Positions 4,641-9,299 of a stretch of DNA of 30,529 nucleotides are shown here, one piece after another (position 1 is the stretch's first letter; the number at the start of each line of letters is the position of its first letter). The stretch lies in the IMG/VR virus record IMGVR_UViG_3300030101_003050, positions 9,125-39,653 of that record. One strand, 5' to 3'. A program made the position numbers and the translations under genes. The DNA comes from a virus. The notes under the pieces are model-generated. The model was not told the origin of the DNA and searched no databases. It worked only from the letters and a program-made list of their open reading frames with translations.

Positions 4641-4967
4641 TTACTTTTTATGGAATTCAATGGCAACGAATGGTAATACTAATACCCACTTATTATAGTG
4701 ACTAAACGATCCATCCACACCAAAAGCAAATCCAAAGACTGGTATAAACTCTGTTGTTATTTTTGGTAATAGCTTTGTCTTACGCATCATTGTTAAATAA
4801 AATATTGCATTTAACCATGCTATGATTAGTATAACTGATTCAAATAAGAATTTACCAAAACCTAGCCAACCATTATAATAATAGTTGCCCAATATTACTG
4901 CGGTTAATCCAAATGGTATTACTACCACGAATAACCATTTTATGCATACTCTGAAGAATGTTTTCAT
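4641..4967 (-). CDS. Small integral membrane protein
   Basis: A 108-aa protein with two clear membrane segments, about residues 11-29 (WLFVVVIPFGLTAVILG) and 38-60 (GKFLFESVILIIAWLNAIFY), and a weaker hydrophobic stretch at 93-104. A short basic loop (MMRKTKLLPK) follows the second segment. It starts 10 bases after the stop of the lipoprotein gene and is surely co-transcribed with it, so the two may act together at the host envelope. A holin is possible, but the endolysin lies far away on the other strand. I therefore favour an envelope-modifying or exclusion role, by inference only. Confidence 0.75.
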   Translation of the reverse strand: MKTFFRVCIKWLFVVVIPFGLTAVILGNYYYNGWLGFGKFLFESVILIIAWLNAIFYLTMMRKTKLLPKITTEFIPVFGFAFGVDGSFSHYNKWVLVLPFVAIEFHKK

Positions 4968-4977
4968 AATTGTTTTT

Positions 4978-5463
4978 TTAATTGTAGAAGATAATAGTAT
5001 CTCCTGAGTTAATATTTGTGTTTAGATCCCACGTCTTAAGATAAAACCCTAATGTACCATAGGTAGCATTATAGCCAGAAATATCAGGTTCAGCTGATGG
5101 ATAAAAGTAATCATTTGTACTATGTATTTCTATATCTGGTTGTGAAATCATTGAATTGAGGTTCCATTGCAACCATATATCATCACCATTTGATACGCAT
5201 TGATCACCATGTTCTGGTGTACAATCAGCCATAAATGAACTAAAGCTGGTATCCCATTTAGTTTGAGCGGTTACATTATTACTATCTATATCATAATAAC
5301 CTCTATATACCCAATGATTGTTTTGATAATCATACGCTTTAGTATATAACGATACATCTGTATTAGATAGTAGTTCTTGAACTGGACATATTGGTTCAAG
5401 TTCTTCCTTTTGACAGGAAGTAAACGATAGGAGAATGCCTATACATATAATTAATTGTTTCAT
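4978..5463 (-). CDS. Phage-encoded lipoprotein with a Bacteroidota surface-export signal
   Basis: A 161-aa precursor. Residues 1-16 form a lipoprotein signal peptide (MKQLIICIGILLSFTS) ending at lipidated C17, with a loose lipobox as is usual in Bacteroidota. The mature protein begins C-Q-K-E-E, which matches the lipoprotein export signal (Cys-x-Lys-[Asp/Glu]2) known from Capnocytophaga and relatives to send lipoproteins to the outer leaflet of the outer membrane. The rest is polar and aromatic-rich with further cysteines and no known domain. It is followed at once by a membrane-protein gene. Phage T5 uses a lipoprotein (Llp) to block its receptor, so superinfection exclusion is a reasonable inference; a role in release or host interaction is also possible. 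Confidence 0.82.
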   Translation of the reverse strand: MKQLIICIGILLSFTSCQKEELEPICPVQELLSNTDVSLYTKAYDYQNNHWVYRGYYDIDSNNVTAQTKWDTSFSSFMADCTPEHGDQCVSNGDDIWLQWNLNSMISQPDIEIHSTNDYFYPSAEPDISGYNATYGTLGFYLKTWDLNTNINSGDTIIFYN

Positions 5464-5580
5464 ATTTACTTGTTTATTTATTTGTGCAATATTGCGGGTA
5501 CTATGCCTATTATCCTATAGAGAGAGAGACATAACACCATTATTTAGTATTGTTGCTTGTATTAAGGGCTAATACCATTA

Positions 5581-5592
5581 CGTTAGCTATAT
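5581..5592 (+). repeat. 12-base motif CGTTAGCTATAT, copy 2
   Basis: Identical to the copies at 3490-3501 (minus strand) and 18138-18149. Here it is not next to a stop codon, and TATATTAT follows one base later. Confidence 0.7.
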
Positions 5593-5732
5593 TTATATTA
5601 TAGGTACTGATAATTATAACAGTAGTGGTAAAAGGTGGTATTTTGTGGGTATAAGACCTATCTTTTTGTGTTACACACACATAAAATAAAATTTTACCAC
5701 AGTTTTATGCAATAAATTGGCATAACGTGCTA

Positions 5733-5757
5733 TAGCTGGGGAGAAGATAGCAGTAAC
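5733..5757 (+). repeat. Imperfect 25-base direct repeat, copy 1
   Basis: This begins TAGCTGGGGAGAAGA and continues TAGCAGTAAC. The partner at 6267-6291 begins TAGCTGGGGAGCAGA and continues ATAGTAGAAC. The pair flanks the gene at 5873-6202, one copy on each side. Confidence 0.6.
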
Positions 5758-5798
5758 TGTAGTTAGCAGAGAAGAAAGCAGATAAAATAGCAGTAACT
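5747..5798 (+). repeat. AGCAG iteron-like cluster
   Basis: ATAGCAGTAACT occurs exactly at 5747-5758 and again at 5787-5798, 40 bases apart. AGCAG itself occurs at 5749, 5765, 5777 and 5789, at spacings of 16, 12 and 12. Such spaced repeats are typical of binding sites for an initiator or repressor. Confidence 0.5.
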
Positions 5799-5838
5799 TT
5801 TACTTGCATGCATTGCTTTTACTCTGTTAACTAAAAGA

Positions 5839-5862
5839 CAACAGAGCTGTTACACTCTGTTG
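5839..5862 (-). terminator. Hairpin after the 5873-6202 gene, likely terminator
   Basis: CAACAGAG (5839-5846) and CTCTGTTG (5855-5862) form a perfect 8-bp stem with an 8-base loop, 10 bases after the stop codon at 5873. The minus-strand tail is only TCTTTT, so termination may be weak. Confidence 0.55.
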
Positions 5863-5872
5863 CCTATTGTTA

Positions 5873-6202
5873 TTAGACACTCTCTACCCAACGTAGATTA
5901 GTTTCTTCTCCTGTGTTTAAATCTACTACAGGGTTATCACTTAATTTAAAGTTTGGCATTTCATCTCCTTGGTTGAGTTTGTTTTGCAAAGCTTTAATTG
6001 TAGGATGTTGTGCGTTCATCACTTTGTTTGTATCAGGGTCTATTAGACTTAAGATGCCAAAGGTTACATTACCTGTTGCTCTTGTAGCTACTGACATTCC
6101 TGCAAGCTCATTCTTCTTTGAAGTGATTGGCTTGTCTGATACAATGATGGTTGCTGTTCCTGTGTTCTCATTGATTCTTAGTTTTCTGAAAAATACTGAC
6201 AT
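5873..6202 (-). CDS. Unknown small protein, first leftward gene
   Basis: A 109-aa soluble protein starting MSVFFRKLRINENTGTATI. It has a beta-rich first half (TATIIVSDKPI, VATRATGNVTFGILSLID), a helix (HPTIKALQNKL) and a polar C-terminus ending LRWVESV. The frame extends 20 codons upstream, but the ATG at 6202 has an AT-rich leader and is the better start. It stands alone between two copies of a 25-base repeat and is closed by a hairpin at 5839-5862, so it may have its own control. As the leftward gene nearest the divergent region it could be expressed early. I do not recognise a family. Confidence 0.72.
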   Translation of the reverse strand: MSVFFRKLRINENTGTATIIVSDKPITSKKNELAGMSVATRATGNVTFGILSLIDPDTNKVMNAQHPTIKALQNKLNQGDEMPNFKLSDNPVVDLNTGEETNLRWVESV

Positions 6203-6441: not shown

Positions 6442-6753
6442 ATGTCTGAGTCTAATGAAAAAGATGATATAATGGATAGAATACAACAAATGCAGTTAGA
6501 TCAGATATTATTAGACAAGGCGTATAACAATGCTTGGCTGATACTGTCCGGGCAAATTACTTTTGATGAGCTATTAGGTCAGAACTTCCAAAAGGAAGAG
6601 TCTATGATAATGGCTTTTGATCCTGAGATGGGACCGAAAAAGGAAGAGTTAGAAAATATGATTGCACATTTCATTGAAAGTGAACAATATGAAAGGTGTG
6701 CAAAACTCACTGAGATATTAAATAAAACATACCCTAAATTAAGTTCAGAATAA
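6442..6753 (+). CDS. Small acidic helical protein, first rightward gene
   Basis: A 103-aa acidic protein starting MSESNEKDDIMDRIQQM, largely helical by eye, with a C-terminal EELENMIAHFIESEQYERC and a tail ending KLSSE. It has no membrane segment or catalytic motif. Its stop codon overlaps the next start (TAATG), so it opens the operon of small basic proteins. An acidic protein leading a set of very basic ones might be a partner for them, but that rests only on position. Confidence 0.75.
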   Translation: MSESNEKDDIMDRIQQMQLDQILLDKAYNNAWLILSGQITFDELLGQNFQKEESMIMAFDPEMGPKKEELENMIAHFIESEQYERCAKLTEILNKTYPKLSSE

Positions 6754-6959
6754 TGGCATTAAAAAAATCAAGTAAAAAGAAAAAAAGTACCGTAAATAGT
6801 AGTGGAAACTACACAAAACCGGGAATGCGTAAAAGATTGTTTAATTCAATCAAAGCCGGAAGCAAAGGCGGAAGACCGGGACAATGGTCTGCACGTAAAG
6901 CTCAGATGTTAGCTAAACGTTACAAAGCTGCTGGTGGAGGTTATAAAAGTAAAAAGTAA
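6753..6959 (+). CDS. Tiny basic protein of the WSARKAQ / GGGY family
   Basis: A 68-aa protein rich in lysine, with an N-terminal KKSSKKKKS run followed by the block GSKGGRPGQWSARKAQMLAK and then RYKAAGGGY. I know this block from small proteins spread through phages and some large viruses (I believe the DUF5872 group, not checked). The function is not established; DNA binding or DNA compaction is plausible from the charge. TAATG overlaps join it to both neighbours. Confidence 0.85.
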   Translation: MALKKSSKKKKSTVNSSGNYTKPGMRKRLFNSIKAGSKGGRPGQWSARKAQMLAKRYKAAGGGYKSKK

Positions 6960-7207
6960 TGGCACTTAAAAAGAAAAAGCCTGTAGCTGCAAAGGCAATG
7001 GCTAAAAGCGTATATAAGAAAGGTGGATCAGTTAAGACTGTAAAAGGTGTTCCAACAAAGGGACTTACCAGCAGACAAGCTACTACACTTAAGAAACATT
7101 CTGTACATCACAGTAAGAAACACATCAAAATGATGGTTGATGCAATGAAAAAAGGAGCATCATTTAGTGCATCACATAAAATGGCACAGAAGAAGGTAGG
7201 CAAGTAA
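6959..7207 (+). CDS. Tiny lysine/histidine-rich protein
   Basis: An 82-aa, strongly basic protein. A low-complexity N-terminus (MALKKKKPVAAKAMAK) is followed by a helical block LTSRQATTLKKHSVHHSKKH and KMMVDAMKKGASFSASHKMA. The same block with SVHH is familiar from many marine phage hypothetical proteins. It begins and ends with TAATG overlaps. It is probably a nucleic-acid-binding or virion-internal protein; no function is established. Confidence 0.83.
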   Translation: MALKKKKPVAAKAMAKSVYKKGGSVKTVKGVPTKGLTSRQATTLKKHSVHHSKKHIKMMVDAMKKGASFSASHKMAQKKVGK

Positions 7208-8375: not shown

Positions 8376-9299
8376 ATGAGACAATTAAAAGTAGGAAGTA
8401 AAGGAAATGATGTAAAAACGCTACAAACAAAATTGAAGATTACTGTTGATGGGCACTTTGGACCATTAACTGAAAAGGCAGTGGAAAAATATCAATTGGC
8501 TAAAGGGTTACCATGCACAGGTGTAGTTGATAATGATATGTGGTCACTGCTTTTAAATTTAGAATATAAACCAGAAGAGGACATTGCAGAAGATACAGAT
8601 GTAAGTGATCAGTATTTTAAAACTAGATTTGATCAAATAATACATAAACACTATTTACCTAAAGGAGAATATGTAGAAGGCCCTATAAAAAATGAGTATA
8701 TTTTTTTACATCATACTGCTGGTAATGCTAACCCATATAGATGTATAGATCATTGGGGTAGAGATACTAGAGGTAGAATAGCTACAGAATTTGTATTAGG
8801 AGGTATTAACCATAGAAATGGTAATGATGAATATGATGGTGTTATGGTGCAGGCATTTCCTGAAGGATGTCAAGGTTATCATTTAGGTAGAACTGGATCT
8901 GGTTTTATGAACCGTCACTCTGTAGGATTAGAGATATGTAGTATGGGATACTTAAATAGTAGAGATATGACTACATATGTAAATAGCAAATGCGTTGAAG
9001 ATCAAATAGTTGAGCTTCCAGAAATGTTTAAAGGTTATCTACACTGGCATAAATATTCAGAGGAGCAAATAAAAGCTACTGAAAAATGGATTAGATATGT
9101 AGGAGAAAGAGATCAAATAGACATAAGGCTTGGACTAAAACAATTTATAAAGAAGTATGGCCCAACAAAAGGTTTTGAATTTCAAGAGGATGCATTTTAT
9201 GGTAAGGTGAGAGGATTATTAACACATACAAATGTAAGGAAAGATAAGTGGGATTGTTTTCCACAACCAGACTTTGTAGATATGATAATGAGTTTATAA
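8376..9299 (+). CDS. Endolysin: peptidoglycan-binding domain plus N-acetylmuramoyl-L-alanine amidase
   Basis: A 307-aa enzyme that cuts the bond between MurNAc and the stem peptide. Residues 1-62 form a PG_binding_1 domain (GSKGNDVKTLQTKL, VDGHFGP). Residues about 105-298 form an Amidase_2 (T7 lysozyme type) domain: FLHHTAG with H112 as the first zinc ligand, GYHLG at 167-171, SVGLEICSMG at 182-191, and LTHTNVRKDKWDCFP with H284 and C294 as the other ligands and K291 in the usual place. All key residues are present. There is no signal peptide, so release needs a holin or other route that I do not see nearby. It lies among assembly genes, so a virion-associated role is also possible. Confidence 0.93.
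   Translation: MRQLKVGSKGNDVKTLQTKLKITVDGHFGPLTEKAVEKYQLAKGLPCTGVVDNDMWSLLLNLEYKPEEDIAEDTDVSDQYFKTRFDQIIHKHYLPKGEYVEGPIKNEYIFLHHTAGNANPYRCIDHWGRDTRGRIATEFVLGGINHRNGNDEYDGVMVQAFPEGCQGYHLGRTGSGFMNRHSVGLEICSMGYLNSRDMTTYVNSKCVEDQIVELPEMFKGYLHWHKYSEEQIKATEKWIRYVGERDQIDIRLGLKQFIKKYGPTKGFEFQEDAFYGKVRGLLTHTNVRKDKWDCFPQPDFVDMIMSL

Follow-up and report, generated by a model that had tools for sequence, protein, structure and literature searches.

A crAss-like phage lipoprotein with a conserved Bacteroidota-type surface-export tag and an exchangeable ectodomain

Does a phage of the Bacteroidota borrow the lipoprotein-sorting code of its host, and, if so, to what end? The question is raised by a small lipoprotein gene in a window of 30,529 nucleotides (by window we mean the whole stretch of DNA analysed), which corresponds to positions 9125-39653 of a 39.7-kb IMG/VR virus record. 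The window belongs to a marine crAss-like phage, which has many close relatives in IMG/VR. It encodes a Crassvirus major capsid protein (PF23898, E = 1e-29, above the cut-off) and members of portal and terminase PHROG families. Its genes form two divergent blocks, those left of ~6.2 kb running leftward (replication initiation domain, helicase) and those right of 6.4 kb rightward (structural); capsid, portal, terminase and divergent blocks are all as in Crassvirales.

Translation in Bacteroidota habitually starts without Shine-Dalgarno signals, behind an A-rich upstream region. A Shine-Dalgarno tetramer precedes only one of 38 window genes, compared with a chance level of 9.6% at random positions, and A makes up 60% of the bases upstream of the starts (-12 to -3). 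Because the nearest named capsid, at 28% identity, belongs to a phage whose listed host is the cyanobacterium Leptolyngbya, we only infer a Bacteroidota host, the main evidence being these translation-start signals and the capsid family.

An earlier note had described a signal peptide ending at C17 and followed by Q-K-E-E, which was borne out at 5463-4978 on the minus strand. The lipoprotein gene, its parts and the gene next to it are as follows.

4978-5463, minus strand: lipoprotein gene with a type I ectodomain, 161 aa (open reading frame and lipobox)
5416-5463, minus strand: signal peptide, residues 1-16, MKQLIICIGILLSFTS (from the sequence)
5398-5415, minus strand: lipid cysteine C17 and predicted export signal QKEEL, residues 17-22, fitting the C-X-K-(D/E)2-X optimum
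4981-5391, minus strand: exchangeable ectodomain, residues 25-161 (breaks in DNA homology; alpha/beta model)
4641-4967, minus strand: membrane protein gene, 108 aa, predicted two-helix hairpin and cytoplasmic beta region

The N-terminus of the lipoprotein reads MKQLIICIGILLSFTS up to the cleavage site and CQKEELEPICP... beyond it, with K2, a hydrophobic stretch and then F-T-S immediately before C17-Q18-K19-E20-E21. Its charged n-region, hydrophobic stretch and lipobox Cys within the first ~40 residues make it a predicted signal peptidase II substrate, and the same layout of signal peptide and lipobox recurs in all relatives. The lipoprotein is 88% identical in L004/L008, with homologues in A3/A4. 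Amino acid identities of 88-89% in a second phage, in conjunction with adjacency in tens of more distant phages, establish that both genes are real.

The published optimum for surface export in Bacteroidota is C-X-K-(D/E)2-X, with a consensus of QKDDE, and K-E alone is a weak signal in Capnocytophaga (C. canimorsus) (PMC5080379). A rule for surface lipoproteins asks for two or more acidic residues among the six after the Cys (PMC12578637). As read from its sequence, the window lipoprotein carries a near-optimal Bacteroidota export signal. In the open literature searched, which excludes most subscription journals, no paper was found that describes a phage using this signal.

Loci were gathered with the terminase as bait, which makes their selection independent of the motif. 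The membrane-protein profile was searched in 50 such records, 18 of which reach the site, including the window and its closest relative, and all 18 have the membrane gene. In 14 of them (12 distinct sequences), the tagged lipoprotein lies directly upstream of that gene; in the other four (L028, L040, L060 and L101), the membrane gene occurs without it, and a 51-59 aa lipoprotein with the sequence CGSSRxC is found instead. A motif-based scan returned 29 loci, every one with the membrane gene adjoining or one small gene away. Cys17 and Glu20 (+4 in the tag numbering) are invariant in the 12 motif-independent sequences, and S16 and L22 are nearly invariant among relatives. Of the 12, ten have Lys and two have Gln at position +3, and position +5 is evenly divided between Glu (six) and Pro (six). 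The earlier note had asked whether C-x-K-[DE]2 and the adjoining gene are conserved; the gene is, throughout, and under the LES sequence criterion the window lipoprotein (C-Q-K-E-E-L) and all 12 relatives have the wide form of the motif, although only six have the strict form, the remainder reading C-x-[KQ]-E-P. Relatives without the cysteine or the acidic signal, named in that note as evidence against its reading, are absent among the 12 distinct sequences, each of which has at least two acidic residues in +2 to +7.

Over residues C17-22 the 12 relatives have a mean pairwise identity of 73%, the corresponding values being 39% in the signal peptide and 27% in the ectodomain, and the best-conserved hexapeptide of the family is C-x-[KQ]-E-[EP]-[LI]. 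The motif thus exceeds chance, the tag being the most conserved stretch among relatives chosen independently of it. It is retained across diverged leaders (down to 35% nucleotide identity) and unrelated ectodomains. The interpretation given in the earlier note is thus supported in part. Its proposal of a Bacteroidota surface-export signal on a phage lipoprotein holds up in both respects, the tag matching the published optimum (PMC5080379) and forming the best-conserved part of the family; the role in superinfection exclusion or envelope remodelling that it saw for the gene pair is putative.

The ectodomain behind the tag is of two types. Type I, for which the window protein gave an alpha/beta model (pLDDT 72, pTM 0.68), is that of the window and most relatives, and type II, with a mature part of ~91-117 aa and the pattern C-x-P-x-L-P-x-S-x-x-Y-x-Y, is found in L025, L077 and L125-L133. 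A profile-profile comparison of the two types finds only an 11-residue leader in common. When the leader is removed, the probability of a match between them is 0.15 percent, compared with 94.8 percent for two subgroups of type I. Aligned in pairs, relatives are homologous at the DNA level up to ~72-90 nt into the gene, just past the tag, and again from the stop codon or a point further on. To illustrate, L017 (type I) shares 89% identity with L025 (type II) over the stretch from -899 to +78; beyond it the two are unrelated until the stop codon, where homology returns. The same pattern of break and resumption is seen within type II between L126 and L125, and L009 and L077 are 87% identical to +90 and unrelated after. 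The ectodomain is thus swapped as a cassette, and the leader and tag in front of it stay the same. Cassette-swapped surface proteins in general are alike in having a constant leader, an exchanged exposed domain and homology on both flanks; unlike them, this is a gene of a crAss-like phage that would act on the surface of the infected host and not on the virion. The combination of a constant leader and tag with an exchanged ectodomain fits pressure from changing surface receptors or from competing phages, and is what one would expect of an outward-facing protein.

The lipoprotein and membrane genes also stand out from their neighbours by a much higher rate of evolution. A comparison of the window with its closest relative gives a dN of 0.070 for the lipoprotein and of 0.059 for the membrane gene, whereas none of 20 other genes exceeds 0.022; for the nonsynonymous excess, the Fisher p values are 4e-9 and 7e-8, respectively. 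The 24 codons of the lipoprotein leader show no change in this pair, and the ectodomain shows 46 changes, 20 of them synonymous and 26 nonsynonymous. Positive selection is possible, at an overall dN/dS for the lipoprotein of 0.29 in this closest pair (0.85 for the membrane gene); import of a diverged allele would likewise raise the substitution counts.

The reading that we prefer, and to which we give an even chance of being right, is that of a lipoprotein displayed on the cell surface, with an ectodomain exchanged as a cassette, whose role is to block or remodel phage receptors. The phage would make the lipoprotein in the first part of infection; once secreted, lipidated on Cys17 and carried to the outer membrane, it would be turned outward to the surface of the presumed Bacteroidota cell by means of an export signal, C-x-[KQ]-E, that is the host's own. 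There the ectodomain may bind a surface receptor or structure, thereby stopping the adsorption of further phages and of progeny particles stuck to debris. Having to fit the receptor in use, it would diverge fast and be replaced as a cassette behind the constant leader, the small two-helix inner-membrane protein serving as a conserved partner or helper. Several points tell against this reading. In about half of the relatives the tag reads C-x-[KQ]-E-P, without two adjacent acidic residues, and K-E alone is weak (PMC5080379); four of the 18 records lack the lipoprotein yet have the membrane gene; searches yielded no exclusion protein resembling it in sequence or fold; its overall dN/dS in the closest pair does not demonstrate positive selection; and the evidence on the host is indirect. 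The broader proposal, that crAss-like phages possess a surface-acting, receptor-matched immunity built of host-exported lipoproteins with cassette ectodomains and mechanistically distinct from periplasmic Llp and Cor, is tentative, and we would put it slightly on the doubtful side. Bacteroidota phages are very abundant, and their superinfection control is largely unknown. A phage gene joining a fixed host sorting code to an exchanged exposed domain would provide a handle on the surface receptors used, with leader and tag as a search key for similar proteins in other Bacteroidota phages, and paired types, such as L017 and L025, permit a direct test of receptor matching.

Known exclusion proteins offer a parallel. 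Llp of T5 and Cor of the HK022/phi80/T1 type are also small phage-encoded outer-membrane lipoproteins expected to protect the infected cell from adsorption. The comparison with T5 made in the earlier note stands as regards a phage lipoprotein that blocks a receptor, but not as regards topology: Llp sits in the periplasm and blocks FhuA, its receptor, from inside, the complex of the two having been solved, so that a surface-exported blocker would act from the other side of the membrane (PMC9586334). The tagged lipoprotein would be a functional parallel to Llp with the opposite topology, and it differs from both Llp and Cor in its greater length, its surface-export tag and its exchangeable ectodomains.

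Llp nevertheless suggests a different reading, in which the lipoprotein remains on the periplasmic side of the outer membrane, where it would plug a TonB-dependent receptor from beneath. A weak match of the full lipoprotein to phrog_1119 (Cor; E = 1e-4, 31-33% identity over residues 1-78) points the same way. However, only four of 12 full-length members match, all weakly, and none of 17 mature sequences does; the shared sequence is limited to the signal peptide, and homology to Cor was rejected. The NCBIfam Cor model NF047972 gave 14 bits against a cut-off of 31. HK022 Cor has 77 aa, whereas the tagged lipoproteins have 117-161 aa, and the conserved acidic tag predicts Bacteroidota surface export. 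We therefore regard action from inside as unlikely. Searches of the lipoprotein against Pfam, NCBIfam and PADLOC gave no match above the cut-off, and a PDB sequence search with the profiles of both proteins returned nothing. The ectodomain model had no fold match in BFVD or PDB (best VIA-align Z 3.4), a result that says little for a model with a pLDDT of 72, and across PDB, BFVD and PADLOC the lipoprotein showed neither homology nor a fold match to known exclusion proteins.

A surface lipoprotein might instead serve nutrition, as an auxiliary gene product that binds a glycan or a transporter, remodels the envelope and alters uptake during infection. Surface lipoproteins of Bacteroidota often partner TonB-dependent transporters (PMC12578637), and some relatives add a DUF4846 protein, of a family that also occurs in Bacteroidota plasmids. 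The sorting signal is that of Bacteroidota surface lipoproteins such as MucG and the SusD type, C-Q-K-E-E here and C-Q-K-D-D-E in their consensus. Unlike these, the tagged lipoprotein is phage-encoded and small, has no match to SusD or to glycan-binding families, and has an ectodomain swapped between relatives, the rapid exchange being unlike a metabolic gene. Uptake remodelling thus appears improbable.

Alternatively, the tag might be a by-product, phage lipoproteins of Bacteroidota resembling those of the host without the tag having any special role. In a small control sample from two Bacteroidota plasmids, nine of 14 predicted lipoproteins had at least two acidic residues in +2 to +7. An acidic tag is therefore common among Bacteroidota lipoproteins, a single occurrence means little, and the weight falls on conservation rather than presence. 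Acidic residues are absent from +2 to +7 in the other small lipoproteins of these phages (CGSSRxC, CGxxKPSWE), which makes the tag specific to the tagged lipoprotein; in a 116-kb relative, no lipoprotein found other than the family member conforms to the acidic-residue rule. Given also that the most conserved stretch of the family persists with such divergent leaders and ectodomains, a by-product is quite improbable.

For the gene that lies beyond the lipoprotein, the earlier note had given a spacing of 10 bases and two to three membrane segments. The gap is exactly 10 bases (4968-4977), and hydropathy indicates two clear membrane segments, a third being unlikely. AlphaFold2 places helices at residues 2-32 and 37-60, followed by a small C-terminal beta region, and positive-inside charge and hydropathy put both termini, including the short beta region, in the cytoplasm. 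We propose that the membrane protein is a conserved partner or helper of the lipoprotein and that the two may act jointly; as it persists where the lipoprotein is missing, it may serve more than one partner. It had no match above the cut-off in Pfam, NCBIfam or PADLOC, and no relatives in a single-sequence scan of 84,980 prokaryote genomes, a kind of scan that detects close relatives only. An outer-membrane lipoprotein gene adjoining a small inner-membrane protein gene, with small lysine-rich lipoproteins at the same place in some relatives, recalls the outer and inner spanins of a lysis module, but this is very unlikely, since the membrane protein, a helical hairpin whose charge places both termini in the cytoplasm and which lacks a coiled coil in the periplasm, departs from Rz/Rz1-like topology, the pair lies with replication genes and away from the amidase gene (8376-9299, other strand), and an outer-face export tag makes little sense for a spanin.

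The lipoprotein gene is situated near the head of the leftward operon, with replication genes and opposite to the structural genes. Upstream of it are the following.

5464-5872, minus strand: conserved non-coding region of 409 bases, candidate leader or promoter (alignment of 10 relatives)
5495-5520, minus strand: 26-mer CTATAGGATNATAGNCATAGTACCCG in this region, exact and in single copy per locus at 54 of 148 loci
5625-5641, minus strand: ATACCACCTTTTACCAC block in this region, nearly invariant in the alignment of 10 relatives
5873-6202, minus strand: first gene of the leftward operon, 109 aa, a conserved site marker (100% amino acid identity in L004, 64-93% in others)

The region at 5464-5872 is a candidate phage promoter, origin or leader. 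It has no Rfam match, its predicted RNA folding is not significant (z -1.1), and a search of the upstream sequence for a Bacteroidota -33/-7 promoter (TTTG-N17-23-TAnnTTTG) gave no hit. The 109-aa gene has no PHROG or Pfam match; its homologues form a tandem pair in L126 (2229-2558 and 3016-3351) and L130 (2499-2828 and 3025-3360).

Several further genes accompany the site in relatives. A second lipoprotein of 50-60 aa, lysine-rich and lacking the acidic export tag (LQSCGSSRxC...; for example L028:1166-1336, L126:4357-4527 and L102:2330-2497), occurs beside the membrane gene in many of them and sometimes replaces the tagged one. A third small lipoprotein family, CGxxKPSWE, of 59-72 aa, is encoded on the structural-gene strand (L009:3742-3954, L107:1427-1645, L141:1311-1499). 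In some relatives, a secreted protein is encoded after the membrane gene (L102:659-1504, L060:988-1821). That of L102 is a DUF4846 protein (PF16138, E = 1e-70), a family otherwise seen in bacterial (Bacteroidota) plasmid records; it had no match in the phage collection and no relatives in a single-sequence scan of the 84,980 prokaryote genomes, again a scan for close relatives only. No lipoprotein of the tagged family was detected in the cultured Cellulophaga phages phi14:2 and phi17:2, and phi17:2 has two other possible lipoproteins. To the left of the window in the same phage (record G000), L159:8169-8492 encodes another possible lipoprotein or anchored protein (...LLNSCRTADKVV). The two closest phages differ in a run of small lysine-rich genes (6753-7207 in the window, L004:2932-3482), where L004 has an extra gene.
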